Positions 24,833 through 61,136 of a DNA stretch of 64,000 nt are shown one piece after another. The notes under the pieces were generated by a model. That model was not told where the DNA came from and ran no database searches. It worked only from the letters and a program-made list of their open reading frames with translations. The stretch covers positions 2,369,001-2,433,000 of the forward strand of contig NC_089280.1 of NCBI RefSeq assembly GCF_963678975.1, read 5' to 3'. The translations under genes were made by a program, and so were the position numbers. This stretch comes from Dysidea avara. Its lineage: Eukaryota; Porifera; Demospongiae; Dictyoceratida; Dysideidae. Position 1 is the first letter of the stretch; each line of letters opens with the position of its first letter.

Positions 24833-25847
24833 ATGGCTGCTAGAGTTGCCACTGACCTTACTCTCTATGATGTGAATCCCACTGGAAAGGAAATTGGTCG
24901 CGGTGCTTATGGGAGAGTGTTTGAGGTCGACTATCAAGGAACGCTGTGCGCCGCCAAGGAGGTACACTCGATCTTGTTGGAATGGTCTCAAGGTGAAGCA
25001 CTTCGTAAGATCACAACCGACTTTCTTAATGAGTGTCACATTTGGAGTACCATTCGTCACCCGTACGTCGTTCAGTTTTTAGGTAATGTATTGAACCTGT
25101 CATGTGACCACACTAGCTATTTATATAGGAGTGTACTATCCCACACGTGAACAGTACAGATTACCTGTTATGGTTATGGAAAAAATGCAACACAGCCTGA
25201 GGGGCCTGGTGGAGAACTACATTAACATACCGTTGAATGTTAAATTATCCATATTGGATGAAGTGTGCCTCGGTCTAAGGTACCTCCATAGTAGGAATCC
25301 TCCAATCGTACACCGTGACCTCACCCCAAATAACATATTACTGGGAAGTCGTCTTGAAGCTAAGATCACTGACCTGGGTGTTGCTAAAGTGATGCAGACT
25401 GACAGTAACATGACAATGACTAAAATCCCAGGAACACCAGATTTCATGCCCCCTGAATCCATTACTCAGAAGCCAGTTTATGGTCCAGCTTTGGATGTAT
25501 TTTCCTTTGGAGGGGTGGCCCTTAATGTTATTACTCAACAGTGGCCTACGCCAACTGACCGGGAACAGTTCAATAGTGTTACTGACAGATGGGAAGTGGT
25601 ATCAGAGGTGACAAGACGTCAGGGATATCTCAACATGTTTGCTGGAGGAGCTACAGACTTAGTACCACTAGTGACATCATGTTTGAGTGACAACTCCCAG
25701 AGACGTCCTTCAGTGATGCAGGTGTCCATGGAAATCAATAGGGTAAAAGATGTGTGTAGTCATCAGACTGGTCATGATGGAATGAGTCCCATTGTATGGT
25801 GGGCTGAGGTATCTAGTCAGTCATCATCTCAACATCAACAACAACAG
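24833..25847 (+). CDS. Kinase 1: kinase-domain exons
   Basis: ATG at 24833. Gly loop GRGAYGRV (residues 22-29), ATP lysine in CAAKEVH (K42), HRDLTPNN (catalytic Asp 147, Asn 152), DLG in place of DFG (165-167), PPE in place of APE, and DVFSFGG. The essential K, D, N and D are present, so activity is plausible despite DLG. The family looks tyrosine-kinase-like (TKL). It ends in a Gln-rich stretch before donor CAG|GTTTGT. The intron at 25083 falls between Leu and Gly of QFLG, a position not interrupted in kinases 2 and 3. Confidence 0.88.
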
Positions 25848-28800
25848 GTTTGTTACGATTACATGTAATGTGCATGGTTGATGCTAAAATGAGAGAAATG
25901 TGTCAGTGTGCGTCTTCTCTTTAGGATAATAAATTTAGTTTAATAAGTAAGCCATGTGGTATCAGCAATTGCAGAAAAGGGTTGACTCTTTATTGGCTCA
26001 AAACAACAGACCCATTCAAATATCACATGCCCAACAATCAGCCTTATCCGAAATTTTGTCACAAACATAAAATGGCCGCTGTAGTGTGGGGACGTTCGTA
26101 AAATTTGTATGGGCGACTATGGGAAGAAAATTTTGAACGGCGATATCTCAGCTAAGATGGAAGATATCGAGCTCTAACCAGCAGGTATGGTTATAAATTA
26201 GCTTAAGAATAGGAATCTAGCGTTGTTTTGAAAATCAGCCGAAAATTGCTTTTATGCACTTATTGTAATGCCTTATAGCCATACCTGCTAGTTAGAGTTC
26301 GATATCTTCCTTCTTGGCTGAGATATTGCCGTTCAAAAATTTTTTTCCCATAGTCACCCATACAAATTTTACGAATGTCCCCACACTACAGCGGCCATTT
26401 TTATGTCTGTGACGTACTTTCGGATAAAGCTCATTGCCTTAATGTCATGTCAAGATTCTTAGCTGTCTGCAAGCATGTGATACAACAACATAGATCACAC
26501 AAATATACCCTAGTATGTTGACTACTAGTCTCGTACCCAGCCAGACTCGCGCTAATGCGCAAACACTGTCTGGTGACAATGCTCGAGTTTCTTGGGCCCG
26601 GAAGTGCTATCCAGCCAAAATATTGGCTGGCCAATCAGAATCGAGGAGTTGCATAATCGCATGAATGTATTGGAAGTTGATGAAAAAGCAGACTGTTTAA
26701 AGCCGACCTTATAAAACTCAAGAGTGGTGACTTGACCTTATCACCAGTAATGAAACACTCCTCTACTAACAAGAGGTTACGTCTAGAAATCGCCCTTTTG
26801 TGAGTTTTACTTTATTCCTAGCCGTTTTCGAATGGTTTTTCACCGTTGTTAAGCAATTACGCAACTCCTCGAATCTGATTGGCCAGCCAATATTTTGACT
26901 GGATTGCACTTCTGGGCCCAAGAAACTCGAGCATTGTCACCAGACGGTGTTTGCACATTAGCACAAGCCCGGCTGGGCATGAGACTAGTTGACTACAGGC
27001 ACAAGCCTATATTATTAATTTGAAAATGAAGAAGAGATCCAAGCAATAACAAGTGTATGAATTATGATATTCCAACATATTTTGGTGGAAAATCCCTACT
27101 ATAGCACAATTATTTCATTTAATGCCAAAGTAGGGACTTTCCCACTGAACTATGTTGTAATAACATCATTCATAATTCTTGTTTCACGACTTTTTATTGC
27201 CCTGTTTCATTTCATAATTTTTTAAATAAACCAGTTTGTTTTAGCTTTTTTGTTATGCATAACATATACAGTAGCTATGATATACATGTGTATAGGTACT
27301 ATTAGAATATGGTACAAGGTTAGGTTAACTGTTAGAATATGGTACAAGGTTAGGTTAACTGTTAGAATATGGTACAAGGTTAGGTTAACTGTTAGAATAT
27401 GGTACAAGGTTAGGTTAACTGCTTTGTTGGGGTAGTAGAGTGTGTCTCTGGCCTAAATGAGAATATTTCAATGTGCGATTATTTACCACTGCTTATAAGA
27501 ATTGGTTGAAAATTGGTTTGTATATATAAATATAGGTTAACAACATAGCTGAACTTTTTTTTCTTAAATTTGCGGTGACAGCTACAGGGCCATGCCCATT
27601 GGTTGCAAGGAGAAAACCTACCTGATGTAAGGGTTGAAATACTCTAATATAACAATCATCAAGTATTTTAAATGCTCAAAAAATGTTGATGTTGTCCAGG
27701 GACTTCTGCTTTACCAATGAAAGTCAGCTGTTTTGTTCACATAAATTATTAAAGTTGCTTAGTATTAAAAGTTCAATTCACAAAAATAGGAATTTTAAGG
27801 ATGAAAGAAATAAAAAGTAGTACAACAAGGAAGGTCTCTTACAACTGAGGATATACTAGTGAACATTTAATCTCTACTTCAGTTTAATAATACTATTATA
27901 GATTAAATGTTCACTATTATCTGCAAGTGTAAGTGACCTTACTTGTTTCACTACTTATTATGTCTGTGATCCCTGACTGAGTTTCATTTTTCATTGATTT
28001 GTTGTTTACGTAATTATGGCTGTGAACGAATGCATACCATATCAAAAGAAGGAATGATGCCATACTTAATATTTTCATCTGACCATGTGCCCTAACCATC
28101 ATTACTGAGAAATGAAGTGACAATTATGTTTAATTTTCAGCTATGTTCAGCACATTATACAGCATACAAACGAAGAACATTATGAGAAACACCTCTGTAA
28201 TCAGTACGTAAGAAAATTACGGATGGTTTCCATTTTAAAAACATAGCAAATCGAAACCTTTTGGTATCAGCGAGAACATTAAGGGAGCATAAAGGTAAGT
28301 CCATGATGCGTAAAATGTGGTATGCCAAGATGTTTAATGGTGAAAATGCACCTTAGCTGTTGTCAAGTTATGCTCGTCTGAAGACATCAGGCAGGCAGTT
28401 AGCCATTTAGAAAATTAATTCTGTAGCAACTTATTGGAAGTGTTTTGGCCACTCTGACCACACTTTAAGGTTAGACTCTAGTCACTCTACCTAACCACTA
28501 CTGCCAAGGCACCATGGAGGCTGGTTTTGGTCAATTTTTTTTGAGAAAGGGCAAACTTCCATGATCCCTAGTTTACAGTACTATGGTACTGGTTTACCAA
28601 TGGCTGCTTTAACACATTCTCTGTGTGTTGTACTAAAAGTTCAGCCCTCAAAAATGTGCACTGTATTAGTGATCCATATACATAGAGGAAGTTTCAATGG
28701 ACGGAACTTTTACAGATTTTGTGTTTGTCAACCACAAAAGTTTCCATATTAGCTATACCTATGATGAGTATACATATCTTTAGTCATCTGTAGAGCCACC

Positions 28801-31800
28801 CCCATTTATATAAGGTCTGTAGCAACAGTCTGTAGGTATGTACAATGCCTTGCCATTGCTGTATATATATGCTTACATGGAGCCATGCCCACTGTACTAA
28901 TCTATATAATTCTTGTACGCCAACACACACATTTTTCAAGCACTGTCCTGTCATTCTAGGTTGGATTCCAATTGCATTGGTACCATGTTAATCTATGATT
29001 GAAGGCGATTTTTTTGATCTGGATTTGGTGGCGATCCATTAAACTACAGAAACACCCCTTCAATCTGGCATTGCTATAGTATACAAGTTGAGCTGCATCC
29101 TGAAAAACAGCTAAAAATGAAAAGTGGATTTTTTTTCTCAAGAAAATTACCATTTCAGCCAACCAGATGATTAGTGGCAGTGGTGTCAACAACAGACATG
29201 TAGGTTTGGCTCCAGAACAAATTCGTAAAGAGGTTAATACTACATTTTTATGGCTTTCTTGTATGAAATGTATGGTGAAAATTTTGATTGACTGTAAATA
29301 TTGTGTCGGACATTTGAACTAGAGATGTACCGATCTACCCATCTAGTATTGGATTGGTACCAATCTCAACAGTTTGAGCGAAATTGGTAGAATGGATTTT
29401 CTGTTGAAGCCACCGATTCATGATACCAATCTTTCTAATCACCATTTCTCTAGCATACTAGACTTCTTCTATCATTTCTCTACTCCATTTACGAAATAAG
29501 TTAAATTATAGTGCCATTTTCCCATTGAAACTATGAGAAGCCATACAAATATGTGTAAGTTAACAGTTTTAATTATTGAAACTTACCCTTGAACTTACCA
29601 TAGGTCCTTGGCTGAATAGTGTTGCACCATATCAAATAGACTAAACTATTTGAAAATCTACTACAACAGCCTACAAATCATTCCAGGCAAGTCTTGGGAA
29701 GAGCATGCATTATAATATTCGTGGCTGCTGATTGTCTGGGTGGTGTAATTGAAACCAAACCACCATTGGTATTGACTCCAGTAACAATGCTGTTATCATC
29801 ATTTAGGTAAAAATTGACCAATTAAAAACTGTACAAGATCATTCATCATATTAGATAACTAATGTCAGATTGGTACAATATCGGTAGATCAATAATATAT
29901 TTCCTAGATTGGATTGGTATTGGTAAAGCTCAGAAAAGTTGAATTGGTACATCTCTAATTTGAACGAAAAGATTTTGCAGCGGATCAAGCTGTGCTACAA
30001 ATGAGCCAAATTTCAAGGTTGTGTGTAATTGGATCCATGAGTTAGTAAATGTTTTAGAGGATTTGTGTACATACTATAACAGAAGAAGTGCCTTTGTTAG
30101 ATTGTGCCCTGTAGTTGCCAGACTGAGGAAAAGTAAAATTCAAGGACATAAGATTTTCAAACACAAACTCCTCCTAGGTATCATTCCAAACTCACTCGAT
30201 GTACCTCCTGTATATGGTGGTTTTGTGCCTATCCTTACAGGCTAACCTTGAGTTTGGGAACAATTAAGCTCACAGACTAGTATTCTGATACACACAGTAT
30301 TCTAGGAGTAATCACATCATTACATGCCAACAAAGACATGATTTGGCATAGCAACGGTATTTGATGTGCATGCATAGTTTCTTCAATGGTGTGTTGCACA
30401 CTAACATCTATAACATCATGCGTTGGTGACCTGGCACATAAACAAAGAGTGACTGATGTCGTAGTTTTGATAACATTGGTTGGCCTTGTGCACTGAAATC
30501 TGCCTGAACATCTGTGCAGTACCCATGAAGATGACATATCAAGACTTATGTGTTATAGTTACAGGTTCTTTAAAATGCAGAGATCTACATGTCTGAACAT
30601 CTACAAAATCTTTATAAAGTGGCGTATGAAGATGTGCCCTGTTATAAAGTTATAGGCTCTTAAAATGCCACATACACAAATGGCAGACAAATGCCACAAT
30701 TGGGATGTACTCTATTTCATTTGGATGATGATGTTGCATGAACTAACATAATAAAGTGTCTGAGTGTGATATGAGGCTTGCTGGGCAAGCTGATTTGTGG
30801 GCATAAGTTTCCATCACCAATGGTTGGTACATCAAATGTAAGTATATTCACACAACAGCACATAACAATGGTCTTAGTGTCAAGCGAATTTTGCGTGGGT
30901 ACAGTTAGTCAATCATTAATTGTGTGTATAATCTAGCTTTGTACGTAGATTGTATTAGTACGTAGTCTGTACCTTGCAACAGTCCAGCTTTTTTCATAAA
31001 CCTGCCCACTTATCAGGAATTTGACTATTTTACGTAAATGGCTAAGTGCATTTAGCAGCACCACCATAATTTGCTATATTATAACCTTGAGTTAACTATA
31101 TTATAACTAACGTTGTAGACTAACCTTGAGTTAACTATATTATAACTAACGTTGTAGACTAACCTTGAGTTAACTATATTATAACTAACGTTGTAGACTA
31201 ACCTTGAGTTAACTATATTATAACTAACGTTGTAGACTAACCTTGAGTTAACTATATTATAACTAACGTTGTAGACTAACCTTGAGTTAGTTAGTTGGCT
31301 TGCTACCGTGAAAGTTCCACCCATCAAAAGCATTTCCTGTATTACAAAAGTATTAATAAATAGTCAAATAGAACATGCAATACAATTGTATCTTCTTCCT
31401 TCCATAGTCATCTTTGCATTGGTTAATAAGAAATTTAAGTAAAAACAAGCTCTAAAGCCAACTGTGGGACAAAAAGACCCATGATAGTGTGCTGTGTGGC
31501 AAAGAAAGCAAGTATGCCATGCCTTGAGTATGGTATATATTGGCAGAGAAAAAGGGAACAGCATTTCATACATGCATAGCTCCATGGCACCTTCTCCAAA
31601 GCACACAGTTTTTTGCATTGTAAGCCACACAGTAAGCTTGATTGAATTGCACCAGCCGTTTAAGAGAAATATGTGTTCAATGTTTTGATTTAATTTCTTT
31701 GTTGTTTTTTCTTAAGCCATAGGGGGCTACTGGGGTTTTCATACACTTTACAAAAATTGCTATATGAAATGCAATTGTGTAACTTGATTGCTTCAATCTT

Positions 31801-34800
31801 TGGCACAAATGAAGAGCGTATAAAGGTGAATATATGTATCAAGTTTGCTGAATCTGATAAATATCCGAGAAGTTATGAGCATTTATTAATGTTCAAAAGA
31901 TTAAACTTCTGTCATGGCTACAGGGTATTGGGAATAACTTGAAAAATTGGTGTGTACATAGGCTGATCATCGTAGCAGTGCCTTTAAATAGCAATAAAGT
32001 TGCAAAGTTATAAAACAAAACCAAAGAAGTGTAAAATCTTGGTGCTCTAATAGAGCAGTTACTGTGGGATAAAAAAATACACAAAAAATGTCGAGAAAAA
32101 AAGTTCAAACCGTACCTAACACCCGCATCCTTAACCGAATAGTACACTAAGTGGCGTATCTACTGTAGCTCTAGCTGTTACTCTGGTCACCGGTCGAATA
32201 ATTATTTTTGTGGGTGCTGTAAGGACTTCAGGAAGAAACCGTTCCACTGTTCTGCATTGCTCTTTCATCCCACACTCATGCTCTGGCTATAAAGGTACGT
32301 ACTTTAAACCATAAGTTAGACACTGCAACCAACAGGAACTAAGCGATTTAGTATCCCCTTAGGCCCTCAGTAGCACCCTCACTGCACTTGGGACTCTACA
32401 GCCTAGGGCCATTGGAGTTACTAAATCCAGAGATAGAGGGGTGCTCCGTGCCCCCCTATTATCCCTGCTACATCTCTTAGTTCCCTTGGTCTTGGTGTCT
32501 AACTATTATATAATGGCTGTGTGCATTCTTAAAATTTAGTAGCATTAACACCATTTCTTTGCTGCCATCTTTGATTTCACAACTTTTTTGTCCAGGATTT
32601 TGAGGGCTACAACCCCTTTTTACAGCTTGGCTGTTTTGCATGGATAACTTTACAGGCAGTATTGGATACATCACTCAGAATGATGTTAAAACACTGATGT
32701 ATTTAGTTTAAAACAACTCCTCTGTGACTTTTTTAATGGTTTAAATGCTTTATACATGGGAACAGTATTGCCAAATTATGGAGTTAAATTGGATGACCAA
32801 AGCAATCCATTATTGGATGATAATTGCTTTAGTACAGATTGTTCCTAAGGCCATTCCTTGTTTCCCATCACCTTGAGAACAATCAGGTAGTGAGGGTGGG
32901 CATTTATTATTATTAATAAATGTCATTATTTTAGTGAGCCTTCAAAGTGACAATATACTGTCCACTAGTGAATTGGTTTCAAGCAACAAGATAGATGTTT
33001 CAAAGGATTGTGGTTTTTCATAAGTGCAACAAAGCAGTTTTCAAGAAATTTAGTAACAAAATAACACTTTTAGATGAGTTTTAATGCCTCCCAGGAAATA
33101 AATAATGGGTGTGATTGCTGTAGTAGGATAGTTGAGTGTTATAATTATTAGAGTTGCTGACTGCTCTATTACAGTATCTCGATGTTGAGCACAGAAATAA
33201 TTTGTTTCTAAATCTTACTAATGTGTAGGGTATAAAGTGGCATGTGGGCAGGTGACAGGAAATTAGGAATTAACAGATGTTGGCCTAATTTGAATGGCTA
33301 TAGAATGATTCAATTATTAATCCAGCACAGAATATTCAAACTTAGATGACCGGAACCTTTACTCTTAAACCCACAGAGAACTTTTGGGAAATGCATGTTT
33401 ACATAATATGGGCACGCTTGGTGACGGTAACTTAATTTTAATAAATAATTTAGTTTAAACATCAACCACCTATACATTCCAAATATTTAAGACACAACAA
33501 AATTATTTGAGACACTGTTTGTACTCGCTACATTGTTACTGTACAGGTTACTTCACTGATTACTCAACTGGAGGAGATGACAATGAGATGTGGAGAGTTG
33601 AGGAGAGAAGTTGATGTTGTCAAGGCTGAAAATGATGGCCTCCAGATAGTGAATAATAGCCTCAGTGTGGAGAATAATGGCCTCAAGGTGGAGAATAATG
33701 GCCTCAAGGTGGAGAATAATGGCCTCATGGTGGAGGTTAATGGCCTCAAGGTGGAAAATAATGACCTCATGGTGGAAGTTGATGGCCTCAAGGTGGAGAA
33801 TAATCGCCTCAAGGTGGAGAATAATCGCCTTATGGTGGAGGTTGATGGCCTCAAGGTGGAGAATAATGGCCTCAAGGTGGTGAATAATGGCCTTAAGGTG
33901 GAGGATAATGGCCTCAAAGTGGAGATTAATGGCCTCAGGGTAGAAAATAATAGTCTTAAGGAGGAGAATGCACGGTTACAGGCTGAGAATCAGGTCAGTA
34001 GACACAGTAAAGGTTATACACAGATACTTTATATATATATACCACTAGAATTGGCAATCACACTTGAGCTAAAATATGCCAAGTATTGCCCCATTCGTGT
34101 GGTATGTACTTCTCTATGAAGATGTCCTAGCATTATGACTATGTACTGTATAAGACACACAGAAGTGTGTTGTGCGACTAAGACCACACCGTGAGAATAT
34201 TTACAGGAAGAAAGAAAATGTGATTTTCATTCTGAGCACACGTAGCTCCATGGTCCCTTCTTGAATTGAAATTATTAATTTCTTTTCTACTACAATGCCC
34301 TCCACCTTCAGCACCCCTCATACCATTTGAGCAAGACTGCCTAATGCAATCGTGAAATACAAGCCCATAAAGTGTGACTTTATTTCTTCATTTTTTCTTC
34401 GTTTAGGGGGATCAGGGCATAGATTACTCTTTTCGCATACTTACAAAAACCATTATAGAATGCAAATGCGTAGCTTGACTTTGGTGCACTTTAAGAGCAT
34501 ACTGTTGACAGCAGCAAAATTGCGTACCAAGTTTGGTGCAAATACGATTAATAACCTAGAGCTATGGATGATCATTTGTATTTAATAAAAAGGCTGAATT
34601 TTGTCATGCCTACAGGGTAAACCACTTATGGGAATAATTTAAAAATCGGTATGCTTATAGGTTAACGATTATAGCATAAATCATTTGTGGTTTAAAAGAA
34701 AATCACATTGACAGCTATAGAGTTACAAAGCAAATATGTCATGGGGTTGAGATAACAGTCACCATGCACGGGATGAAAAAGATTCATAAAGAATGTCAAA

Positions 34801-37800: not shown

Positions 37801-40800
37801 GCATACCACAGTACGTACAATACATTCTTCATGGACTTACCAGTGTCCTCCTTTGTGTCCCATTCATCTTTGCTGACAGCAAAAGGTGTTGATTTGGTGG
37901 TAGCACGTGATGGCTTCCCTTCGTAACGGAAATCGTCCGTATTTTTCATCGTGGCTATTTTGATTGCAGAGGTGCTTTTCGAACAGTTATTGATTCATAC
38001 TGCTGTGTAACGGGTTGAACATAGCCGACAGTGAAGTGTAATGGATACTTCACTTTTCAGACGATAATTAATATAATTGGGGCGTTCGGCACTCCTTCTT
38101 TCTTTTTGTATGCGTGAATTGTAGAGGTGCTTTTCGAATAGTTCTTGATTCGAAAAGCTGTGTAGCGGGTTGAACATAGCTGACAACGAAGCATAATGGA
38201 TACTTCACTTTTCAGACGATAATTGATATAGCTGGGGCACGCGGTACCATTTCAGATGTGGTATGCATGAGTTCACCAATCATAATAAATTATTTACAAA
38301 AAAAAGTTAAAAAACAAGTACACGAAACAAGTTGATGTGCTATTTCTAAAAACCAGGTGTCATGCAGCTAGTTAACTCATCCGGAATTGACTATAGACGG
38401 TATATGCTACTATGAATTAACCAACTATGTATTACTATTTTACAATAGGGTAGTTTTGAGTTGTGCAATAATATTATTAGCTAACTTGTATTTTGAAATT
38501 CATGAAAATTTTGTAATTCGTTTAATTACGTTGCTATGCACTGCTAAGGAAGCGTTTGTTAAACAAACCGCTTTTACCAACACATTATGCATAGAAGTAT
38601 CTTCTAAACTGTTTTATAGTGTGACTAACGTGTTTTTCCCCTCAAATTCTCTCGACAAAGCCTCAAAGCTGCTCTTCATTTTCGTTTGCGTACGTAAGGG
38701 ATACGCCCCCTTTCAGCTCAAAGCGATAGGCTATTCCTGGTAGTGTATGAGACATGTACCATTGTTTTTCAGTTGTTAAACGCCTGAAAACCTCAAGGGA
38801 AGGCAGTCTGAGGAAAGTCACCACACCCGTATTTCAGTCCACCAAAAAGAAACCACCTCAGAGCAAAGTTCACCTGTGCAGAAGTTTAATACAGGCTTCA
38901 TTTTGCTTTTACTTCTTACATAAAAGCTGCTTTTACCATTATTTAACTATTTTGCTCGTGTGGGTGCATACGGACAAACATAGGTAGACAGGTACACACA
39001 CACACTTTTACGAAAACAATTGCAGTAAACCAGGTGCACGCCCACAGCTGGCCTTCAGCCACGCCTGGTTTAAAAATTTGGAATTTTCAACTAGAGTAGG
39101 GACCATAGTACATCGATAAAAAGTACTGAAACAAGTTGGAGTAGTCCGTGATATTAAACCACCTTAAAACAATAAGAAGTGTTATATCCCTACTGTGCAT
39201 ATCGTATCATGAGCACAGTAGGGATATAACAATTCTTATTATTTTACTGTGATTTAATATCATGGACTACTCCAACTTGTTTCAGTACTTTTTATCGATG
39301 TACTATGGTCCCTACTCTAGTTGAAAATCTCAAAATTTTTTGTGTACTTGTAAGAAGATAATTTGCATTAAAACAAGCCTAAAAGGTTGGCTTTGGGTAT
39401 TTAACATACAAAGTGAAATCCACATATAGAATCATTTTTTTTTCTTTTTGAGTAATAAGGAGGTTGGCAACAAAGTCTAAACTTTGGAAAAAACCAAACA
39501 ACGGAATCCCAACTAACTATTTACAAAGGTGTATTACAATCCAAAGAAATATTTTGTACAGTTTACTTATAGTAATCCATTCCACAGCTGTTTTTTTTTG
39601 TGATATATCTCATTTTGCTGTTGTGCATGAGTATCTAGTCCACCATGCCACATCTGGGATAAAGACTTTACCTGTCTCCATCAATGTACGTATAACACTT
39701 TCTTTATTATCAAATAATAGTTTTAACAATGATTTAACTCACCTGATACATGCACTATTACATAACAAACATGCTGGAAAGGATCCGGGTATCCCAGAAA
39801 CGGGACCTCTATTGGCGTGTCCACTTCAGTACTAGCGCATCTTGCTATGAAACATGTTTTACAAGTTATAAAAGTTTTTTCTATGGGTGAGTTATGATGT
39901 CATGCCACCATATGGTGGCAGTGGCCATTAATGGGCTAAACTTGAAGTCTTATGTATTTGAATAGTACATCAAATTCGTGACCGAATTTTGGAAAATCGT
40001 CAATATACGCACAATAGTACTTTTGTAATAAAACACATTTAAAAACTATGGGTCTGAAATAATTTACTTATCACCTCACTGGTGGGCGAATTAAGCCTCC
40101 AATGGATAAATCCTAAGCATCACCATGTTCGCCTGTTCATAGGGAGTACAAAAATTTTTGCTTCATCTCTATACACAAAAGGACTTCAAAGTTACAGACG
40201 TTTGTTTACATTGCAGTGACGAAAGAATTTACCGACGATCGTTTTTCAGTGAATTAATCTTCCTTCTCGAACACAGAAGCATGTCTGGGGCAAAAACTAT
40301 ACCTAGGTGGATGCACAAATACATGGCGAACACAATGAGCAAAGATTCAATTCCGTACACCATTGTATCAGTAAGTTATGATGGTTTATGTAAGCGCCTG
40401 TAGATTCTTTTCTCGATAGCTTCTGTACATATCAATTTATTTGTTCGTCCGGCTGTCTAGTGCTGTATTTCCAACCCTGCTTAACTTAGGAAGCTGAAAC
40501 TTAGCTAGTCCATTCCTCTGTCCCTGTAGAAAACAAAGAACAAATAAAATGCATTTTGAAAATTGTGCGGATATCAACGGTTTTCTATAATTAGGTCACA
40601 TTTAATGTCAATGAACAGTACACCATTGTTCCCAAATAACAGATTTAAATTATATTTATTTACAGCATCAACCAAATCCCCAATTTCCTCCATAACACAA
40701 TATAAAATTTAATTTTGTCCATCATGTGTTGTTTTGTGTAGCAAACTACATTGATAGCTGATCAGAGGAGCAGTTTACCACCTCCTGTTCATCGTCAGTC

Positions 40801-43800
40801 TAAACAACGTGTGATCTCTGACAAGTCAAGGGTGAGTACATCATTGCTATAGTTGTAACATGTATCCTTTATGCAAGAGTGTATTGTATGTACCGAGTGA
40901 TCAACTGAGCAAACATTCTGCAAGATTCTATTTTGCTATAAATGACCCTCTTAGCAAAACCCATGTAGTTTGAACAAGCATACTTTTAATATAAAAAATA
41001 ATCTTTTAAAGAATCATGGACATGAAATTATGCATGGTGCAAAGAAACAATGCACAAGTTCTAATTGACCCAATACTCAGAGAAGCAAGTCACAAATCGA
41101 TTAAACCTATACACCATCTTATTTGCCTGCACATGGACAGTTCAGGTTGTTTCTGTAGCCCCAATGGTATTCATTTAAAATGCCTTCATATGTACCTGTA
41201 TACACACATGAATACAAGGCTAAAACTATATTTGGTGGATTTGTCAACATATAGTAGTGTTGCACCTATGTTAGGGTCCGCAATCCGAAAAATCAACTTT
41301 TACAAATCGATCCCCCTACCATTGTGGGTTGTTCATTGTAGTATCCCATTGCTAGATCCACCGTGAAACCGGAGGCACGATTGTTGTCTTCACAGAAATA
41401 TCGGCTTTAGTATTTCGTGAGATGCAAAAATTATTTTTTAAATTTCGTGCTCCACACAAAGAACAGGATAGAACTTGCTACTTAGCTAGATATTATCTAG
41501 AGTTAATGTAGTTAAAAAGTATGCACAGTAATAAGCAAATAACTCACTGGGTTCCCAGCACAGGGTTGCTTTCTCTCAAAAAGCAGAAAATGAAACACAA
41601 ATTTTCGAATTCAAACTGCCCTACCAGCCAAGACAAGAAAAGCCAACTCTTCCTCATAGTGATGTGATAAGGTTGGATGCATAGTCTGTCTATGTTGTTA
41701 GTCTGGAAAGGATCTGAGACTTCTCACCATCTGGGTGAAGAACGTCAAAAATTTCGTGCGTCATTTCAAGGGATTCTCTCAATGGTACCAAAGTGCTTTC
41801 CAGTACTTCTGATGACACACTGGTCACTTAATTTTGTTTAGAATGATGATAAATGATGGATCAAAACGTTTGGTAGTAGTAGTAGTTGGTGTTTCTGTGA
41901 TTTCATATGGTGCAATATACCAGCAGCTCACCAGGAGCTCCACCCAGCTCGAATCAAAAATGAAAGATTTTATGCTTTTTTCGGTTTGTTTTTGGATGTT
42001 TTGCAGCATAATGGTGATCTAGTGAAAACTTGAAGCTGCTGTGGAGCGTGATGGGTGAAGTCAAATTTGGACAATTTTGCTGCCTCCCTGGATGCATAGC
42101 TTAGAGCGAAGCGTGGAAGCCATGGATGAAATAATAATTGACAACTGCTACTACCAAACGTTCAGGGACATCTTTTGCCATAGTTTTAGTTTATAATTGA
42201 TGATTGTTGTGGCTGCAGAAGCGCTGGAAATAGCTAGAAAGTGCGACACAATTCTTTGATGCTGCAGAAAAATTTGACGCTCGTCACCCAGATGGTGAGA
42301 AGTCTCAGATCTTTTCCAAACTAACAGCATAGACAGACTATGCACCCAACCGTATAGAAACACTATGAGGAAGAGTTAGCTTCTCTTACCCTGAGTGGTA
42401 GAGCAGTTTGAATTCGAAACTTCGTATCTCTTTGTCTGTTTTTTCAAAGAAAACAACCCTGTGCTGGGCACCCAGCAGATCATTTACTTATTTCTGTGCG
42501 TACTTTTCAACTACAACAACTCTGGATATGATATGGTTAAGTAGCAAATTTCATCCGGTCCTTTGTGTGGAGAACGAAATTTTAAAAATAAATTTTGCAT
42601 CTTGCGAGATACTGAAAACGATATTTCTGTGAAGACAACAATCGTCCCTCCCGTTTCATGGCGGATCAAGCAATGGGATACTACAATGAACATCCCACAA
42701 TGGTAGGGGGATTAATTTGTAGAAGTTGATTTTTCGGATTGCGGACCCTACCTATGTCCAAATTAGCTGATTATTCCGATAGCCAGTACTAAGCACAAGA
42801 ATTTGATGTACACAAACACTTATCATCAAATGACTCATATTTGTGGCATAAGCATTGATGCACAGCTCATTCTAGCCTAAAATGTAAAGTTAAAATTGAT
42901 GTATACCACAAGTAAAGGTTATTCATGGTAACCAGATTTTAAATACTGATATATAGATGAGATAAGTGCACGGCTGCTACTACACAGAAAGCTAAAACAT
43001 CACATGGGCATGGCTTGTAACCATTAACACATGACTTAATTGAAATGCCAAATACGTCCAGCCTCAATTTAAACATGTGGTTTATTTTCAATATAGTTGC
43101 TGTGCAAATCTCAACACAGGAGTGTACTGAATAACTATAGTTAGTAACAAAATTATGAGTAAAAACTTCAAAAAAAGCAACAGAACTTATTATTGTGAAA
43201 ATCACAAACATAGGTTTAATTGATTTGAAACTTGCTTATTTGAGTATTGAGTCAAATCGCGCAGCGAAAGCCACACTTTCGACCAACACACTTAATTGTC
43301 ACTTACCAAAAAAAACTATACAGCACTGCAACTTTAAATGCATAAAACGTAACAGAAACTGCTTGGGTATTGACACGTCTGCTATTTAAGTGAAATTACA
43401 TTGTGCCAGTTTGAATACCTGATTGAAATGTGCTGGAGAACTTTCATTGGGTATTTGCTGTTGCTATGGATATTCATTGTTGTTATGGTAAACACAAGGA
43501 AATTTCATTGGTTACTTTTTTCCCCGTGTTTCTATAGTTTACATTTTATAGTTGTAACATGGACAAGAGTGATTTGCCTGATATGTATGCCCAAAGCCCG
43601 AGGGCTGCAGGCGTACATATCAGGCAAATCATGAGTGCCCATTTTACAACTAATATGTAACACTTACATTCAGGCTAATAGCCTTGATGCCAATACGAGT
43701 GTAACCAGTGGATTCGTTTTATATGCATGCCTGGAATATTCGATTATGGTTGGGCAGCAAGTAACAGTGTAACTACGATTGTTATAATAGTCCTACAGAC

Positions 43801-45839
43801 ATTACGGAAAAGTCGAGTAGGGCAAATTTCAGGGAATTTACAAGTGTTTTAATGCTTTTGTGTTGTTTAAAGAATAATCACAACATATACTAAAGACCTA
43901 TAAGGGTAAGCTTAGCTATAGAGTGGTTAACTCATGTCATCTGTAATGTAGGTGTATCCACATTCAAGAACATGCCGAAATGCTTGTGAATGCACTTTAA
44001 GACTAGTTCTCACCTTTAAGTAACATTTTTCAACTTGTAGAATGGCAAGGATACTGCAATGCCTTCATTTGAGTACTTCTTGTGGCAGCAATTCAATTTG
44101 TGGTAATCATCATGCAAGCATTAATTTTTGTATGCAAAAATTTCTTGCACCAAAATTTGTATTAAAGATTGAACTACTCTAATAGAACAGTCATTCACGT
44201 AAATCATACGAAAAATTTTTTACAATGAAAATTTTTATCATGAAAAATTTTTGCACAAAAATAAAGCAAATTATGGTATTTCCACAAATGATTTCATTCT
44301 GAGCTTGTATAAAACAAACAGAGGGCTACCTCATCCACATCAAGGCCATGCTTGCTTTGATGAAAGTGGCTTGCTCTTTTAGAAGTGCAACCACTTTCCC
44401 AGGATAAATTTCAATGTACACCAGTGTACATTTAGATGTCTCCCTATAAAGAGGTATACATGGCAAATGTATCCTCTGGAATTCCTTTGATCTGAGGTGT
44501 CACAGTGTTACATATAGTGTTACCTTACAAAACTTCATTATGACTTTACCAAGTTAATGAGACATAATATAGTCTTAGTTGGTTATCATTCGAATCCTTG
44601 GATCTGTGCTATTTAGATAACCTCAGGATGTTGTGTAATCACTTTCTTTAAGCTATGCCCTTGGTGATACATAACACCCTTTGGATCTGTAAAATAGTGC
44701 AAATCCTCATATTTGACCAGTAGCCGTTACTCGTCAGTAATGTATTACCATGGTTTTATGTATCATATATAAATACTGTAATAAGGTACAAGCTATCAAA
44801 CTAGGGTATCTGGAAAGGCTATAAGACTGACTGGGTCACAAATATGTTTACTAGTCATCTAATCAAACAATTATATATAACAACATGTTGTATACTAATT
44901 TGTTTTTAGGAACAACTGATCCAGTCCCTCACACCTGACCTATTTAGTGGAGCAGTAAAGATCACGTGGCAAGAAGGAGACCCTGCACCAGTTTGTCATG
45001 CTAACCACACAGCTGTGTTTTGTGATGGGAAGGTCTACATTGGAGGAGGCTATGAGGGTAGTAAGAAAGCGGTGTTTGGAACAGGATTCTATAGGATAGA
45101 TGTATACAATCTTGGTAACAACTCATGGAGTCCTTCTCCTATCAGCACCCCTTTTTGTGACTTTGCAATGACCACCCTCAACAACCAGTTGATCACTGCT
45201 GGAGGAAAGGATAGCAGCGGTAAAGTAACTAACAAAACACTCTTAATGGATGACAGTCAGCTAAAACAGTACACCAGGATGATTACACCAAGGTATTATG
45301 GCACGGCTGCTGGTCATCAGGGTACACTGATAGTAGCTGGTGGTAAAGATGACAAGTACAGAACATTAGCCACTACTGAACTGTTTGACAGTATCACTGG
45401 ACAGTGCTACACTACTAGCAATTTACCACTACCACACTACTTACTACACTCAGTTATAGCAGACAACATACTGTACCTAGTGGGAGGACATGATCAAGAT
45501 GGGAGCTCTTCCCCAACAGTATTTACTGCTCCATTAGACACTTTGCCTAGTCACCAGTTGAGGTGGGTTTCCCAACATAATACTCCATGTAGCAGTTCAG
45601 CTCCTGTCAGTATACAAGGTAGACACGTGCTAACAATAGGTGGAATGCGCACTAACAACGTTTACAGGTTTAACAAGGTTAGTCGCAGCTGGGGAGTCAT
45701 AGAACATATGCCATCACCAAGAAGTAGACCAGCGGCAGCTAGTGTGACTGATAACAAAATAGTTGTAGTAGGAGGATATAGTATAGGACAGAAACAGTAT
45801 ACTAATACTGTATGGATTGGCTTATGTGAACCACAATAA
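24833..45839 (+). CDS. TKL-like protein kinase / long coiled coil / Kelch-repeat protein
   Basis: Gene model from exons 24833-25082, 25129-25847, 33547-33993, 40742-40831 and 44910-45839: about 811 codons, stop at 45837-45839. Intron 25083-25128 is 46 nt; the other three are 4-8 kb. All junctions after the kinase are phase 0, so each module is a symmetric exon. The N-terminus is a kinase, the middle a 17-heptad coiled coil and the C-terminus a Kelch beta-propeller. Paralogs at 61137 (kinase-Kelch) and 57053 (kinase only) support the kinase-to-Kelch join. Further small exons may be missed in the introns. Kelch propellers usually bind protein partners, so the kinase is likely targeted by its propeller and dimerised by its coil (inference). 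Cellular location is unknown; no signal peptide or membrane segment is evident. Confidence 0.72.
26041..26430. repeat. Palindromic MITE-like element, TTATCCGAAA ends
   Basis: CCTTATCCGAAATTTTGTCA at 26042 and, inverted, the end at 26429 pair through AAAATGGCCGCTGTAGTGTG, GGACGTTCGTAAAATTTGTA and GCGATATCTCAGC. Arms are about 150 bp and the loop about 90 bp. A TSD was not clear. It is in the kinase 1 intron. Confidence 0.75.
26526..26987. mobile_element. MITE with long TIRs, TAGTCTCGT ends, 9-bp TSD GTTGACTAC
   Basis: Ends TAGTCTCGTACCCAGCC and, inverted, TAGTCTCATGCCCAGCC. Arms of about 140 bp include ACAATGCTCGAGTTTCTTGG. GTTGACTAC is duplicated at 26517-26525 and 26988-26996. A 9-bp TSD with long TIRs is typical of Mutator-like elements. 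Same end sequence as the 73-bp element at 8545-8617. Confidence 0.85.
27062..27205. repeat. Fold-back element (AGTAGGGA family), copy c
   Basis: Palindrome with ATTATGATATTCCAACATAT and its diverged inverse around 27120, including AAATCCCTACTATAGCAC and AAAGTAGGGACTTTCC. Ends with TTGTTTCACGACTTTTTATT, as in copies a and e. Confidence 0.6.
27302..27421. repeat. 30-bp tandem repeat, four copies
   Basis: Four near-identical units TTAGAATATGGTACAAGGTT plus AGGTTAACTG, in the kinase 1 intron. Open frames on both strands follow from the period of 30. Confidence 0.95.
27785..27975. repeat. Fold-back element (AGTAGGGA family), copy d
   Basis: GTGAACATTTAATCTCTACT and ATTAAATGTTCACTATTATC face each other around 27890, with AATAAAAAGTAGTACAACAAG outside. 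Followed at 28140 by AGCTATGTTCAGCACATTAT, matching 17815. Confidence 0.6.
28138..28540 (+). repeat. Diverged relative of the CTATGTTCAGCCC repeat
   Basis: Starts CAGCTATGTTCAGCACATTA, resembling 17814 and, inverted, 38000-38030 and 38160-38185. The later part (GACATCAGGCAGGCAG, ACTGCCAAGGCACCATGG) resembles 18865-18985 in the same order. A composite dispersed repeat; limits approximate. Confidence 0.55.
29077..30076. mobile_element. MITE, TA target site (family 1, copy 2), carrying a nested hAT insertion
   Basis: Left end TAGTATACAAGTTGAGCTGC and right end GTGTACATACTA, TA outside each (29075-29076, 30077-30078). The interior aligns with 1994-2382 (CCTGAAAAACAGCTAAAAAT; ATGAGCCAAATTTCA). 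It is split by the element at 29320-29957. The alignment with copy 1 resumes exactly after the insertion's target duplication. Confidence 0.8.
29320..29957. mobile_element. hAT-like MITE nested in another MITE, 8-bp TSD ATTTGAAC
   Basis: Perfect ends TAGAGATGTACC and GGTACATCTCTA, with ATTTGAAC duplicated at 29312-29319 and 29958-29965. The uninterrupted copy at 2241-2248 has one ATTTGAAC, so the empty site is visible. TAGAGATGTACCGAT ends are a familiar hAT type. No transposase. Confidence 0.92.
31083..31290. repeat. 39-bp tandem repeat, about 5.3 copies
   Basis: Unit ACCTTGAGTTAACTATATTA plus TAACTAACGTTGTAGACTA; copies start at 31084, 31123, 31162, 31201, 31240 and 31279 (partial). Almost no variation between copies suggests recent expansion. 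No spacers, so not CRISPR. Confidence 0.95.
31540..32158 (-). mobile_element. tRNA-headed SINE-like element, copy 1
   Basis: On the minus strand, the head at 32158-32100 reads CGGTTAAGGATGCGGG...GGTACGGTTTGAAC, which matches the tRNA-like head at 34873 (GGTTAAGG, B-box GGTTTGAAC). The body (CCCATAAGT-like, then CCTGTAGCCATGACAG, then CCATGGAGCTATGCATG) parallels 34230-34800. A dispersed motif sits just after the head (32042-32061). Confidence 0.65.
32315..32503. repeat. Palindromic MITE-like element, GTTAGACAC ends
   Basis: GTTAGACACTGCAACCAACA and, inverted, GTTAGACACCAAGACCAAGG, with further pairing of AGGAACTAAG. 189 bp; TSD not identified. In a kinase 1 intron. Confidence 0.7.
33547..33993 (+). 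CDS. Kinase 1: heptad-repeat coiled-coil exon (21-bp minisatellite)
   Basis: A 149-codon phase 0-0 exon. From 33631 to 33987 it is 17 consecutive heptads of the type N-N-G-L-K-V-E, encoded by a 21-bp repeat AATAATGGCCTCAAGGTGGA(G). Taking Leu as position d, d is Leu in 17 of 17 heptads and a is Asn in 12 of 17, with Lys frequent at e and Glu at g. This predicts an uninterrupted parallel coiled coil of about 120 residues. Flanks MRCGELRREVDVVKAE and LKEENARLQAENQ are normal coiled coil. Linkage to the kinase is by phase and strand only. Confidence 0.8.
34165..34873 (-). mobile_element. tRNA-headed SINE-like element, copy 2
   Basis: Minus strand from 34873: CAGCAGTGGCTCAGTGGTTA, with an A-box-like TGGCTCAGTGG (34850-34860) and B-box-like GGTTCAAATGC (34815-34825) spaced as in tRNA. 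The body extends at least to 34230 and aligns with 31540-32020. RNA polymerase III heads of this kind define tRNA-derived SINEs (family knowledge). The body is long for a SINE; the tail end was not found. Confidence 0.7.
35254..35728. repeat. MITE-like element with TACCGTATT ends
   Basis: TACCGTATTGACTCAGTTTG at the left and, inverted, TACCGTATTTACCCGATTTG at the right; inner CACACCCTCGAATAGTACC segments are repeated in direct and inverted form. TSD unclear. A dispersed motif copy abuts the right end (35726-35746). Confidence 0.6.
36068..36319. mobile_element. MITE, TGTGACYG/AATTTTGG ends, TA target site
   Basis: TGTGACTGAATTTTGGAAAA and, inverted, TGTGACCAAATTTTGGAAAA; arms pair to CACCCTTATGG. 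TA is at 36066-36067 and 36320-36321. A single arm of the same kind (GTGACCGAATTTTGG) is at 39979-39993. Confidence 0.85.
37000..38245. repeat. Composite of dispersed repeats in kinase 1 intron
   Basis: 37000-37150 is a relative of 15455-15605. AAGGGGGTGTCACTCAGGCTC...GTAGGTCGATCTGCGATCGCAG (37241-37289) pairs inverted with 37696-37737, bounding a palindrome of about 500 bp rich in TCAAGGGTCAAGG words. 37971 and 38126 begin two tandem copies (155 bp apart) of GGTGCTTTTCGAA...GGGTTGAACATAGC. No gene. Confidence 0.55.
38340..39072 (-). repeat. AAACCAGGCGC repeat element, copy B (inverted)
   Basis: Reverse complement of 17875-18660: TTTCTAAAAACCAGGTGTCA at the left, CCCACAGCTGGCCTTCAGCC and GCCTGGTTT at 39040-39072. 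Shared internal blocks include TCTCGACAAAGCCTCAAAGC and AAGGGATACGCCCCCTTTC. The open frame 38387-38743 is not conserved in copy A. Confidence 0.75.
39079..39345. repeat. Fold-back element (AGTAGGGA family), copy e
   Basis: Nearly perfect 260-bp palindrome: GGAATTTTCAACTAGAGTAG at the left and its inverse at the right, with AATAAAAAGTACTGAAACAA-like and TTGGAGTAGTCC in each arm. It abuts the AAACCAGGCGC element B, as copy b lies beside element A. Confidence 0.85.
39460..40741. other. Intron, no secure exon
   Basis: Open frames 39464-39835 and 40158-40403 lack recognisable domains. 40410-40610 (TATCAATTTATTTGTTCGTC...CTCTGTCCCTGTAGAAAACAAAG) is related to 51285-51400 and 52800-52920, so it is a fragment of the TGTGACCGGCT element family. 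Confidence 0.5.
40742..40831 (+). CDS. Kinase 1: short linker exon
   Basis: Acceptor GTGTAG|CAA and donor AGG|GTGAGT bound a 90-nt phase 0-0 exon encoding QTTLIADQRSSLPPPVHRQ and more basic residues. No domain. It fits between the coiled-coil and Kelch exons by phase, strand and position; being short, it could be a chance open segment. Confidence 0.5.
41272..42750. mobile_element. 1.5-kb fold-back element, TAGGGTCCGC ends, 7-bp TSD CCTATGT
   Basis: TAGGGTCCGCAATCCGAAAA and its inverse bound 1479 bp. CCTATGT is duplicated at 41265-41271 and 42751-42757. Homology between arms extends far inward: CGTGCTCCACACAAAG; CTCATAGTG; CTTCTCACCATCTGGGTGA; GTTTGGTAGTAGTAG with CTACTACCAAAC. Almost the whole element is one giant hairpin. 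No transposase. Confidence 0.85.
43573..43631. repeat. Hairpin GATTTGCCTGATATGTATGC
   Basis: GATTTGCCTGATATGTATGC pairs with GCGTACATATCAGGCAAATC across AAAGCCCGAGGGCTGCAG. The right half recurs at 50749-50800 (GAGGGCTGCAG, CATACATATCAGGCAAA), so it is a dispersed palindrome. Confidence 0.75.
44910..45839 (+). CDS. Kinase 1: Kelch-propeller exon
   Basis: Acceptor TTTTTAG|GAA at 44909. 309 codons to the TAA at 45837-45839. Six Kelch-type GG motifs: VYIGGGYEG, LITAGGKD, LIVAGGKDD, LYLVGGHDQ, VLTIGGMR and IVVVGGYS, each followed by a W or Y-containing strand. It starts LIQSLTPDLFSGAVKITWQE, homologous to VPDLLSGSVNIKWKE of the paralog at 63067. The frame is intact. Confidence 0.9.
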   Translation, partial: EQLIQSLTPDLFSGAVKITWQEGDPAPVCHANHTAVFCDGKVYIGGGYEGSKKAVFGTGFYRIDVYNLGNNSWSPSPISTPFCDFAMTTLNNQLITAGGKDSSGKVTNKTLLMDDSQLKQYTRMITPRYYGTAAGHQGTLIVAGGKDDKYRTLATTELFDSITGQCYTTSNLPLPHYLLHSVIADNILYLVGGHDQDGSSSPTVFTAPLDTLPSHQLRWVSQHNTPCSSSAPVSIQGRHVLTIGGMRTNNVYRFNKVSRSWGVIEHMPSPRSRPAAASVTDNKIVVVGGYSIGQKQYTNTVWIGLCEPQ

Positions 45840-47899: not shown

Positions 47900-48301
47900 T
47901 CACTTCTTATTCCAGGGTAACTTCTCCAAGTCCACATTTCCACCACACAACACAACTCCAATATTGTTCACTTGTGGATACTTCCTCTTCACCTCATCTC
48001 CCTTGTACAGTAGAGCAGCTACAGGTACAGCAGCCGACGGTTCAATGATCAACTTCATCCTCTCCCACACCATCCTCATTGCACTAACTATCTGTTCCTC
48101 ACTAACAGTGATCACATGATCCAGGTAGTGTTGTAACACCGTCCAGCATTTATCCCCCAGACTGACCCTGACACCATCTGCGATGGTTAATTTATCTGGT
48201 GTTGACTTGTTGGGGGTGAGTTTCCCTGCAGCTAGCGACCGAGCACAGTCATCAGCTAGTTCCGGTTCTGCTGCTATCACCTTGATCCCTGGTCTACTAG
48301 A
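47900..48301 (-). CDS. SRR: SRR exon 4
   Basis: 133 codons plus stop (TGA, 47900-47902), acceptor TATAG|TCT. Carries VIAAEPELADDC, TIADGV and GGNVDLEKLPWNKK. Confidence 0.93.
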   Translation of the reverse strand, partial: SSRPGIKVIAAEPELADDCARSLAAGKLTPNKSTPDKLTIADGVRVSLGDKCWTVLQHYLDHVITVSEEQIVSAMRMVWERMKLIIEPSAAVPVAALLYKGDEVKRKYPQVNNIGVVLCGGNVDLEKLPWNKK

Positions 48302-55539: not shown

Positions 55540-55603
55540 TCCCTAAACACGCCTACCAAAACAAATATTTTCGAGTGTGGGTTTTAGCTTTTACAAGAAA
55601 GGA
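55540..55603. promoter_or_regulatory. 64-bp bidirectional interval between SRR and TP53RK start codons
   Basis: Only 64 bases separate the two ATGs. The interval has CACGCC and AAATATTTT words but no TATA box at a fixed position for either gene. Both transcripts must start inside it or within the other gene's first exon. Confidence 0.7.
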
Positions 55604-56254
55604 ATGGCTGCTCGTGAATTGCTGTACCAAGGAGCTGAGGCGAGAGTGTACAACTGCACATTTTTAGGGAAGTCGTGTATCCTTAAGGAGCGTTTCACGA
55701 AGAAGTACCGAGTGGCGGAGTTGGACCAGAAAATCACACAACAGCGCATTAATCAAGAAGTGCGCACAATGGCGAGATGTCGTAGACACGGAATAGCCTG
55801 CCCTGCAGTGTATCACGTGGACAACGAGACAAAAAGCATCTACATGGAACACGTGAGTGGTGGTAAAACTGTCAGGGATTTCATTCGCGCCAGTCAACAA
55901 GAAAACAAAGAGTTTAACAACTTGGCACCAAAAATTGGAGCAGTGTTAGCAGCAATGCACGACTGTGATGTAATCCATGGGGACCTGACCACTTCCAACA
56001 TGATTTATGACCAGTCTGCTGACAAACTGACTTTGATAGACTTTGGACTTAGCTCAGTGTCAACTCTGACTGAAGATAAGGGAGTTGACTTGTACGTGTT
56101 AGAACGAGCAATTCTCAGCAGCCATCCTAACACTGAAGATTTCTTCCAGCTGGTGTTGACAGAGTATCAGAGGAGCTCAGCTAAAGCATCCTCCATTATT
56201 AGTAAACTAGACGAAGTGAGGTTAAGGGGACGCAAGCGTACTATGGTAGGGTAG
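55604..56254 (+). CDS. TP53RK: TP53-regulating kinase / Bud32, KEOPS subunit
   Basis: Intronless, 216 codons from ATG 55604. An upstream in-frame GTG at 55577 is not a likely start. Motifs: YQGAEARVY, replacing the Gly loop as in Bud32; CILKERFTKKYR; LAAMHDCDVIHGDLTTSNMI with the HGDLTTSN catalytic loop; LIDFGLSS; KGVDLYVLERAILSSHP; and the C-terminal RLRGRKRTMVG tail. Bud32/PRPK works as an ATPase in KEOPS for t6A modification of tRNA (family knowledge). Slightly shorter than human (253), mainly at the N-terminus. Head to head with SRR. Confidence 0.96.
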   Translation: MAARELLYQGAEARVYNCTFLGKSCILKERFTKKYRVAELDQKITQQRINQEVRTMARCRRHGIACPAVYHVDNETKSIYMEHVSGGKTVRDFIRASQQENKEFNNLAPKIGAVLAAMHDCDVIHGDLTTSNMIYDQSADKLTLIDFGLSSVSTLTEDKGVDLYVLERAILSSHPNTEDFFQLVLTEYQRSSAKASSIISKLDEVRLRGRKRTMVG

Positions 56255-61000: not shown

Positions 61001-61136
61001 ATATTCTATAACCTATGATCTAATCAAGAGTGGGTAGCAGCTATGTATCACCAAATATGGTTAAATCATGTTAACATTTTATTCTTGTGGTTTAGTCATC
61101 TTTAATTTAATTAGAGCCCTGTGTCTGGCAGACATA
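58028..61136. other. Intergenic between kinases 2 and 3
   Basis: No exon was recognised and no Kelch remnant was seen. It contains a retroelement-tail copy at about 60520-60790 and a half TAGTCTCG end at 60861-60955 (TTAGTCTCGCCTGCCGCCAG, then TACAGGCTGGCTGGC). A G-rich run is at 58144-58160. Confidence 0.5.
60520..60790 (-). repeat. Copy of the retroelement 3' part seen at 2395-2660
   Basis: GGTATAAACACACCAAGGGG, ACTACTTATTTACATGCATA, CAGTGTTGCTGGGGTCATCA and TGTTGATTCTGCCAAATAG follow the same order as in 2410-2640. The coding part (ORF1-like) is not present beyond 60790. Confidence 0.8.

Follow-up and report, generated by a model that had tools for sequence, protein, structure and literature searches.

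What does a minisatellite do inside a protein-coding exon when each of its units encodes exactly one heptad, and to what kind of gene does such an exon belong? The question is raised by positions 33631–33987 of a 64,000-nucleotide stretch of the genome of the sponge Dysidea avara (the window, C9:2369001–2433000), which an earlier note had read as seventeen in-frame 21-bp heptad units with leucine throughout at position d and an asparagine ladder at position a. That reading is confirmed: the interval is 357 bp, or 17 × 21 bp, in a single open frame, and Tandem Repeats Finder reports a period of 21 bp at 33620–33969 (16.7 copies, 79% matches, score 420). We reproduced both residue counts, with Leu at d in 17/17 heptads and Asn at a in 12/17 (the others being three Val, one Asp and one Ile), and the frequent Lys at e and Glu at g that the note had described were counted at 10/17 and 15/17. 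The note had not remarked on Val at f (14/17) or Gly at c (11/17), which are unfavourable for a helix and unusual in a dimeric zipper. Four further heptads precede the array in unchanged register, so that the exon around it, at 33547–33993, holds 149 residues, comprising 21 heptads in one register plus two residues, in phase 0-0. Across these 21 heptads, Leu occupies d in 19, while a is Asn in 12, Val, Ile, Leu or Cys in eight, and Asp in one. With d hydrophobic and a mostly hydrophobic or Asn, the translated exon has the heptad pattern of a predicted coiled coil or leucine zipper.

33547–33993, plus strand: exon 3, predicted coiled coil (149 aa, phase 0-0)
33631–33987, plus strand: coding minisatellite of 17 × 21 bp, with units NNGLKVE and VDGLKVE (Tandem Repeats Finder and translation)

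An unbroken run of Leu within one tandem array is weak evidence by itself because most of it reflects copying, and we therefore rejected the 17/17 count as proof of selection. Open frames on the reverse strand over the array were also rejected as genes, being by-products of the 21-bp period. Other short arrays occur in the window: a 39-bp tandem repeat at 31082–31289 (100% matches over 5.3 copies), lying some 2.3 kb before the coil exon, a 30-bp array at 27298–27421 (98% matches), and 81-bp and 30-bp arrays at 10014–10434 and 10516–10741 with open frames on both strands.

The coil exon has good splice sites (...TTACTGTACAG/GTTACT and AATCAG/GTCAGTAG) and lies between the following exons of a predicted gene.

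24833–25082, plus strand: exon 1, start of the kinase domain with glycine loop and AAK lysine (ATG at 24833; donor AG/GTAATG, phase 1; limits read from the sequence)
25129–25847, plus strand: exon 2, remaining kinase domain with HRDLTPNN, DLG and PPE (donor CAG/GTTTGT, phase 0)
40742–40831, plus strand: exon 4, 30-aa linker (phase 0-0; a match in 3/3 fetched intervals between coiled coil and Kelch)
44910–45839, plus strand: exon 5, predicted six-bladed Kelch propeller (ends at the stop codon)

Phases are compatible across exons 1–5, and the predicted protein amounts by arithmetic to 811 aa. Pfam matches the kinase exons to PK_Tyr_Ser-Thr and Pkinase, and the kinase presumably belongs to the TKL group. 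In the 20 genes that we compared, HRDLTPNN is present in 19 (g8199 has HCD) and both DLG and PPE in all 20; the AAK β3 lysine was read in the window's exon 1 only. This set of HRD, DFG-like, APE-like and β3-lysine motifs is that of a predicted active kinase. No signal peptide is apparent by eye at the predicted start, and Pfam recognised no BTB or BACK domain when the frames of the kinase, the coil and the Kelch exon were scanned. Two other groups of enzyme-like frames lie nearby: a small kinase open frame at 55547–56254 (plus strand; Pkinase, RIO and Kdo matches), which we take to resemble Bud32/PRPK, and minus-strand frames at 47900–48301 and 54842–55336 that by eye look like fragments of a PLP-dependent enzyme, a serine/threonine dehydratase or serine racemase. 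A PIF1-like helicase (Pfam) with adjacent open frames occupies 11047–14666 on the minus strand, an element presumably of the Helitron type.

The gene model is predicted from sequence and the introns on either side of the coil exon are 7.7 kb and 6.7 kb long, which would leave room for the exon to be unexpressed or to form part of another gene. To place the exon comparatively, we searched the window's own assembly (550.8 Mb, 108 contigs), obtaining at least 84 matches to the coil exon, at least 150 to the kinase exon (the best 150 scored of 926 candidates) and at least 128 to the Kelch exon. Placed on the map by hand, with overlaps merged and weak or scattered matches omitted, these gave 37 coil, 40 kinase and 42 Kelch places, which we divided into loci at each kinase or at gaps of more than 80 kb. 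Among the matches listed, 23 loci carry kinase, coil and Kelch in this order on one strand, 15 of them within the first 2.6 Mb of C9; partial or decayed colinear loci include C9:8943, C10:22608354, C9:1607149 and C5:1623103. The linker exon was found in all three coil–Kelch intervals examined, in two with 83% amino acid identity over 24 aa and in the third with 58% and a stop within the match. These 23 loci reject a stray open reading frame and uphold the earlier placement of the exon within a single gene, between its kinase and Kelch parts. Together with the matching phases and the conserved linker exon, they are strong comparative evidence that the exon and its neighbours form one predicted gene, and they make a separate or silent exon very improbable.

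Sequence comparison indicates a family of some two dozen closely related paralogues, most of them in tandem. Among the matches listed, 20 of the 24 full-length kinases with at least 75% identity have both a coil and a Kelch exon downstream. The kinases at C9:1544470 and C9:8199279 have Kelch downstream and a coil-like exon upstream only, that at C1:19727342 has Kelch and no listed coil, and that at C5:2346471 has neither. The two upstream coil exons (L027 and L033), in which no donor was found, are possibly relics or parts of rearranged genes. Paralogous coil exons have the VTSL start and splice sites in common. Two coil exons are listed at several loci, for instance with the kinases C9:783712 and C9:1259813, and in L017, L018, L023 and L024 we see two paralogous genes, each with serial coiled-coil exons, related by segmental duplication and with very different repeat numbers. 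Several kinase–Kelch genes have Kelch directly downstream, with the coil absent among the matches listed, and the coiled-coil exon marks the subclade nearest to the window's gene. One kinase–Kelch gene of the coil-free kind lies at the end of the window, and no coiled-coil exon was recognised between its kinase and the Kelch exon at 63067.

61065–62108, plus strand: paralogous single-exon kinase open frame (donor AAA/GTGAGT at its end)
63067–64000, plus strand: Kelch exon after that kinase (continues beyond the window end)

Stops occur within the exons of two of the 20 genes, in the kinase of g382 and in the Kelch of C5_2082. A search of viral contigs gave 16 pattern matches and no relative. 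Among the open-licence titles listed, none concerned a kinase–Kelch family of sponges, and a search on Kelch selection yielded no paper.

The second claim of the earlier note, that copy-number change would lengthen the coil by whole heptads without breaking the frame, could be followed between paralogues. A clean exon start was present at 29 of the 37 fetched coil loci; omitting L046 (40 aa) and adding the window again gave 29, and the 26 with a donor were measured. Exon lengths range from 61 to 278 aa, spanning about 9 to 40 heptads, and leave a remainder of 5 on division by seven in 19/26. The window's exon leaves 2 because it is without three codons that its relatives carry after the last ENQ, L018 and L024 leave 4 through a one-codon deletion common to both, L031, L032 and L042 leave 2, and L044 leaves 1. 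The introns flanking L018 and L024 are 98.0% identical, and the exons encode 200 and 67 aa, a difference of 19 heptads; for L017 and L023 the flanks are 97.9% and 96.8% identical, and the exons of 173 and 278 aa differ by 15 heptads. Differences of this size between near-identical flanks demonstrate that the length of the in-frame array evolves far faster than its surroundings. The idea of a spacer whose length varies by whole heptads is thus borne out between paralogues, and the tandem 21-bp units, changing in copy number among them, constitute a coding minisatellite.

Rapid change of this kind also suits another account, the main rival for this exon, in which it is a passive linker: a freely slipping coding minisatellite whose length is functionally meaningless, with only the coil ends and the two domains mattering. 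The flanks change far more slowly than copy number, the VVNN blocks in L017, L018 and L023 resemble plain amplification, and some relatives, such as the window's second kinase–Kelch gene, are without the coil exon. Set against these, frame and heptad register are retained in 19 of the 26 measured copies, and the array is under constraint at certain positions. We counted 230 array heptads from 23 exons by position only (omitting L031, L042 and L044) and found pN/pS lowest at g (0.17), followed by e (0.24), c (0.27), f (0.40) and d (0.65). The heptads are thus constrained at c, e and g, with weaker constraint at d and f. The mild value at d favours the passive linker, and those at e and g count against it. 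Values above 1 at a (2.60) and b (2.04) reflect the presence of two unit types, and unit pairs are not independent. An alternative set of 214 units chosen by residue pattern (also without L031, L042 and L044) gave lower values (0.17 at d, 0.12 at f and 0.12 at g) that are biased by the selection rule; replacing it with the position-only count weakened the case for constraint at d and f. On balance, we regard a passive linker as a serious possibility that falls somewhat short of even, and it is compatible with our main reading of the remaining gene.

The same count shows that the asparagine ladder is ordinary within the family. Leu is at d in 213/230 heptads, and at a Asn is the commonest residue (119), with Val at 100. 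The two unit types, NNG/NSG and VDG, are intermingled and in places form higher-order VVNN blocks. In three diverged paralogues, Leu is retained at d in 36/41 heptads; among their units with Leu at d, a is mostly Asn, Val or Ile, while c and f are variable, with Val at f in 10/32. Because c and f vary there, we read Gly at c and Val at f as traits of an amplified founder unit.

Whether such units are helical at all is a fair question, as glycine at c, valine at f and asparagine at both a and b are poor helix formers. AlphaFold2, run on the exon alone as a single sequence, placed helices at residues 2–32 and 135–147 and short strands in the repeat, the latter with a pLDDT of about 40. The mean helix cost, computed from residue propensities, is 0.52 for the repeat, compared with 0.43 and 0.37 for the ends. 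These results could describe a non-helical repeat, an elastic linker, beta-rich or disordered, that is built of NNG/VDG turns and LKV(E)V strands and bounded by helical ends; the spacing of L and V by two, the N-G and D-G turns and the retention of Gly at c (pN/pS 0.27) would fit such an arrangement. The confidence of the strand model is low, however, the register runs on into the helical ends in most paralogues, and the diverged paralogues, variable at c and f, hold to Leu at d and for the most part to N, V or I at a. The sequence matches of the exon are to coiled-coil families and to the streptococcal M6 rod, although they are low-complexity matches. We therefore consider a non-helical repeat unlikely, and judge from its sequence that the exon likely forms a coiled coil.

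M proteins vary in size through repeat number. The M6 rod is the best natural PDB match (E 1.7e-4, behind a designed filament) and likewise has tandem LxxENxxL-type heptads, but the likeness is convergent and low in complexity, M6 being an extracellular bacterial protein with no domain in common with the sponge gene. M proteins are described in PMC10400905 as parallel dimeric coiled coils.

The earlier note had further proposed that so long an asparagine ladder would allow the strands to slide free of register, which our results do not support. Asn alternates with Val at a, and shifting the window exon against itself by 1–8 heptads produces 6–9 polar/apolar mismatches in the core; sliding is further disfavoured because the non-repeat ends add to the mismatch. 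L023, which has a period of four heptads, gives 7/36 mismatches when shifted by four. Compared crosswise, 13 exons have 1–13 mismatches at a, and some pairs of paralogues could mix their coils.

The diversified pocket of the Kelch domain, overlooked by the earlier note, is the strongest signal at the locus. The window's Kelch exon contains six GG motifs and matches Pfam Kelch_1 (E 1.4e-25), and its model is a six-bladed propeller with a mean pLDDT of 76.9 and a pTM of 0.81. Foldseek matches to this model include KLHL20, KLHL17 and Keap1, with 14–22% identity to the listed solved structures. We accordingly model 44910–45839 as a six-bladed Kelch beta-propeller.

Selection was assessed in 20 genes or in 13 close genes without the window's own (the fetched L055 and L090 were unused). 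Over 180 pairs from the 20 genes, the kinase has a median dN/dS of 0.25 and Kelch one of 0.73, and the window's gene against the 19 others gives 0.19–0.28 and 0.45–0.67, respectively. At short distances the difference is larger: Kelch dN/dS exceeds 1 in 16 of the 17 listed pairs with kinase dS below 0.12. Pairs had been formed by kinase closeness (Kelch omega 1.77) and were replaced by pairs from the Kelch tree because the two trees conflict. Eight such pairs, in which g308–g382 and g783–g2313 are not strict sisters, give an NG86 ratio of 1.48 for Kelch (N 262.4, S 52.6, p 0.011), with one pair below 1 (0.73), and eight kinase pairs give 0.28. One-ratio codon models of the 20 genes return an omega of 1.01 for Kelch and 0.31 for the kinase.

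Site-class models, fitted with our own script and of a kind that recombination inflates, strongly favour a positively selected class in Kelch: for the 13 close genes, M2a against M1a gives a 2dlnL of 470.9, with 9.5% of codons at an omega of 25.8 and 24 sites above 0.95. For the kinase of the same genes, 2dlnL is 6.0 (p 0.05), and none of its sites exceeds 0.95. With all 20 genes, the Kelch value is 446.2 (9.6% of codons at an omega of 9.4, 25 sites), and the inclusion of the window's own gene in this test strengthens the claim of selection. Kelch pN (4.7%) also exceeds the divergence of the noncoding flanks (29/1553, or 1.9%). The Kelch exons appear to be under strong diversifying selection and the kinase is constrained, with the reservation that recombination may inflate the site tests.

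The variable positions have a regular placement on the propeller. Averaged over the six blades of the 13 genes, variability peaks at offsets −17, −16, 0 and +4 to +6, counted from the residue that follows GG, and offsets −4 to −1 show no change (mean N per pair 0.00). Keap1 offers a comparison, with Arg380, Asn382 and Gln530 taken by us to be among its Nrf2-site residues. By a contact list drawn mostly from PMC6891428, the Keap1 residues lining this site fall at offsets −17, −16, 0 and +5, and once at +2; our contact set comprises the first four, with the single +2 omitted and Ser602 placed by inference at −17 of the next blade. The threshold defining 25 hypervariable sites and a wider 42-position set were chosen after seeing the data; on this footing, 15/25 sites fall within the 24 contact positions (p 2.6e-13) and 21/25 within the wider set. 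For the model-supported sites, the contact positions hold 14/24 in the 13 genes and 15/25 in the 20 genes, and the wider set holds 20/24 and 21/25. In the window's Kelch, the residues that are both hypervariable and in the wider pocket are 31, 32, 48, 52, 53, 100, 104, 129, 130, 146, 150, 152, 177, 178, 194, 200, 229, 246, 290, 295 and 296.

The pairwise omega is 2.77 in the 24 ring positions and 0.91 outside the 42, with another estimate of 0.97 outside the ring, and the 13 paralogues compared have 13 distinct pockets. At the predicted ligand-site positions, dN exceeds dS among paralogues, uncorrected for recombination, as in a putative recognition family. Variable pocket offsets are also present in the Kelch exons of kinase–Kelch genes without a coil among the matches listed (L091–L110); in these 20 exons, entropy is highest at −17 and 0 (2.29 and 2.33), followed by +1 (2.23), against a mean of 1.26.

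The Kelch signal might instead stem from gene conversion from diverged donors or from relaxed constraint, rather than from selection for new binding. The kinase and Kelch trees reject each other in the AU test (p 1.6e-5 and 4e-10), a conflict implying exchange of exons or gene ends among the paralogues. Synonymous differences are likewise raised at and beside the pocket codons: four-fold sites, though few, differ at 0.046 in pocket codons and 0.060 in adjacent ones, compared with 0.010, and pS is 0.126 in the ring compared with 0.030. This elevation could come from short-tract exchange or from a mutation hotspot, and the omega near 1 outside the ring is what relaxation would give. Neither process readily explains why offsets −4 to −1, just before the pocket position, are unchanged, why changes in ring codons favour positions 1 and 2 (0.34 and 0.35) over position 3 (0.21), why the variable sites coincide with the Keap1 contacts, or why amino acid change exceeds noncoding divergence. 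Gene conversion may well spread Kelch variants, but as a replacement for selection on binding we think this account distinctly unlikely, even more so than a non-helical repeat.

Taken as a whole, the sequence comparisons make it probable, in our judgement, that the locus belongs to a tandem family encoding cytosolic sensor kinases, in which a conserved kinase is combined with a dimerising coil, whose length varies, and with a Kelch pocket that has diversified. Each paralogue's Kelch pocket would bind its own peptides or other ligands. The exon would form an in-register parallel dimeric coiled coil, with Leu at d, Asn or Val at a, Lys at e and Glu at g; this coil would hold two kinases together and fix how far they lie from the propellers, and ligand binding or clustering would then switch kinase activity. 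Coil length would drift quickly by slippage or unequal exchange of the 21-bp unit, a drift that may be tolerated because its steps are whole heptads.

Known systems resemble this arrangement in part. The Kelch domains of Keap1 and the KLHL proteins, which are Cul3 adaptors, have the same six-bladed fold, and the variable offsets −17, −16, 0 and +5 are those of the Keap1 contacts. Unlike them, the sponge Kelch is fused to a protein kinase and its pocket is diversified among recent paralogues; the BTB-BACK-Kelch layout and ETGE-binding residues of a Keap1 orthologue are not found, the kinase standing in place of BTB and BACK. Restriction factors of the TRIM5alpha type have a catalytic N-terminus, a dimerising coiled coil and a C-terminal recognition domain with positively selected loops. 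The predicted sponge protein resembles such factors in layout only, with a kinase for RING/B-box and Kelch for PRY-SPRY, and is not one of them. By analogy, the family could be a repertoire for the recognition of microbes or self.

More tentatively, and with somewhat less confidence than we give the passive linker, we suggest a germline repertoire of intracellular sensor kinases in which a Keap1-like pocket is both selected and exchanged, while a coil length set by the minisatellite and an Asn/Val core favour self-pairing over cross-pairing. If so, an animal would have assembled a recognition system out of kinase and Kelch components in place of NLR, TIR or SPRY ones; its diversified cytosolic receptors would have arisen by kinase–Kelch fusion, and the pocket residues would pinpoint where to seek their ligands. 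The paralogues also provide a natural series of predicted rods, about 9 to 40 heptads long, with which one could test how kinase signalling depends on the length of the spacer, and the pocket map makes what these kinases sense directly testable.
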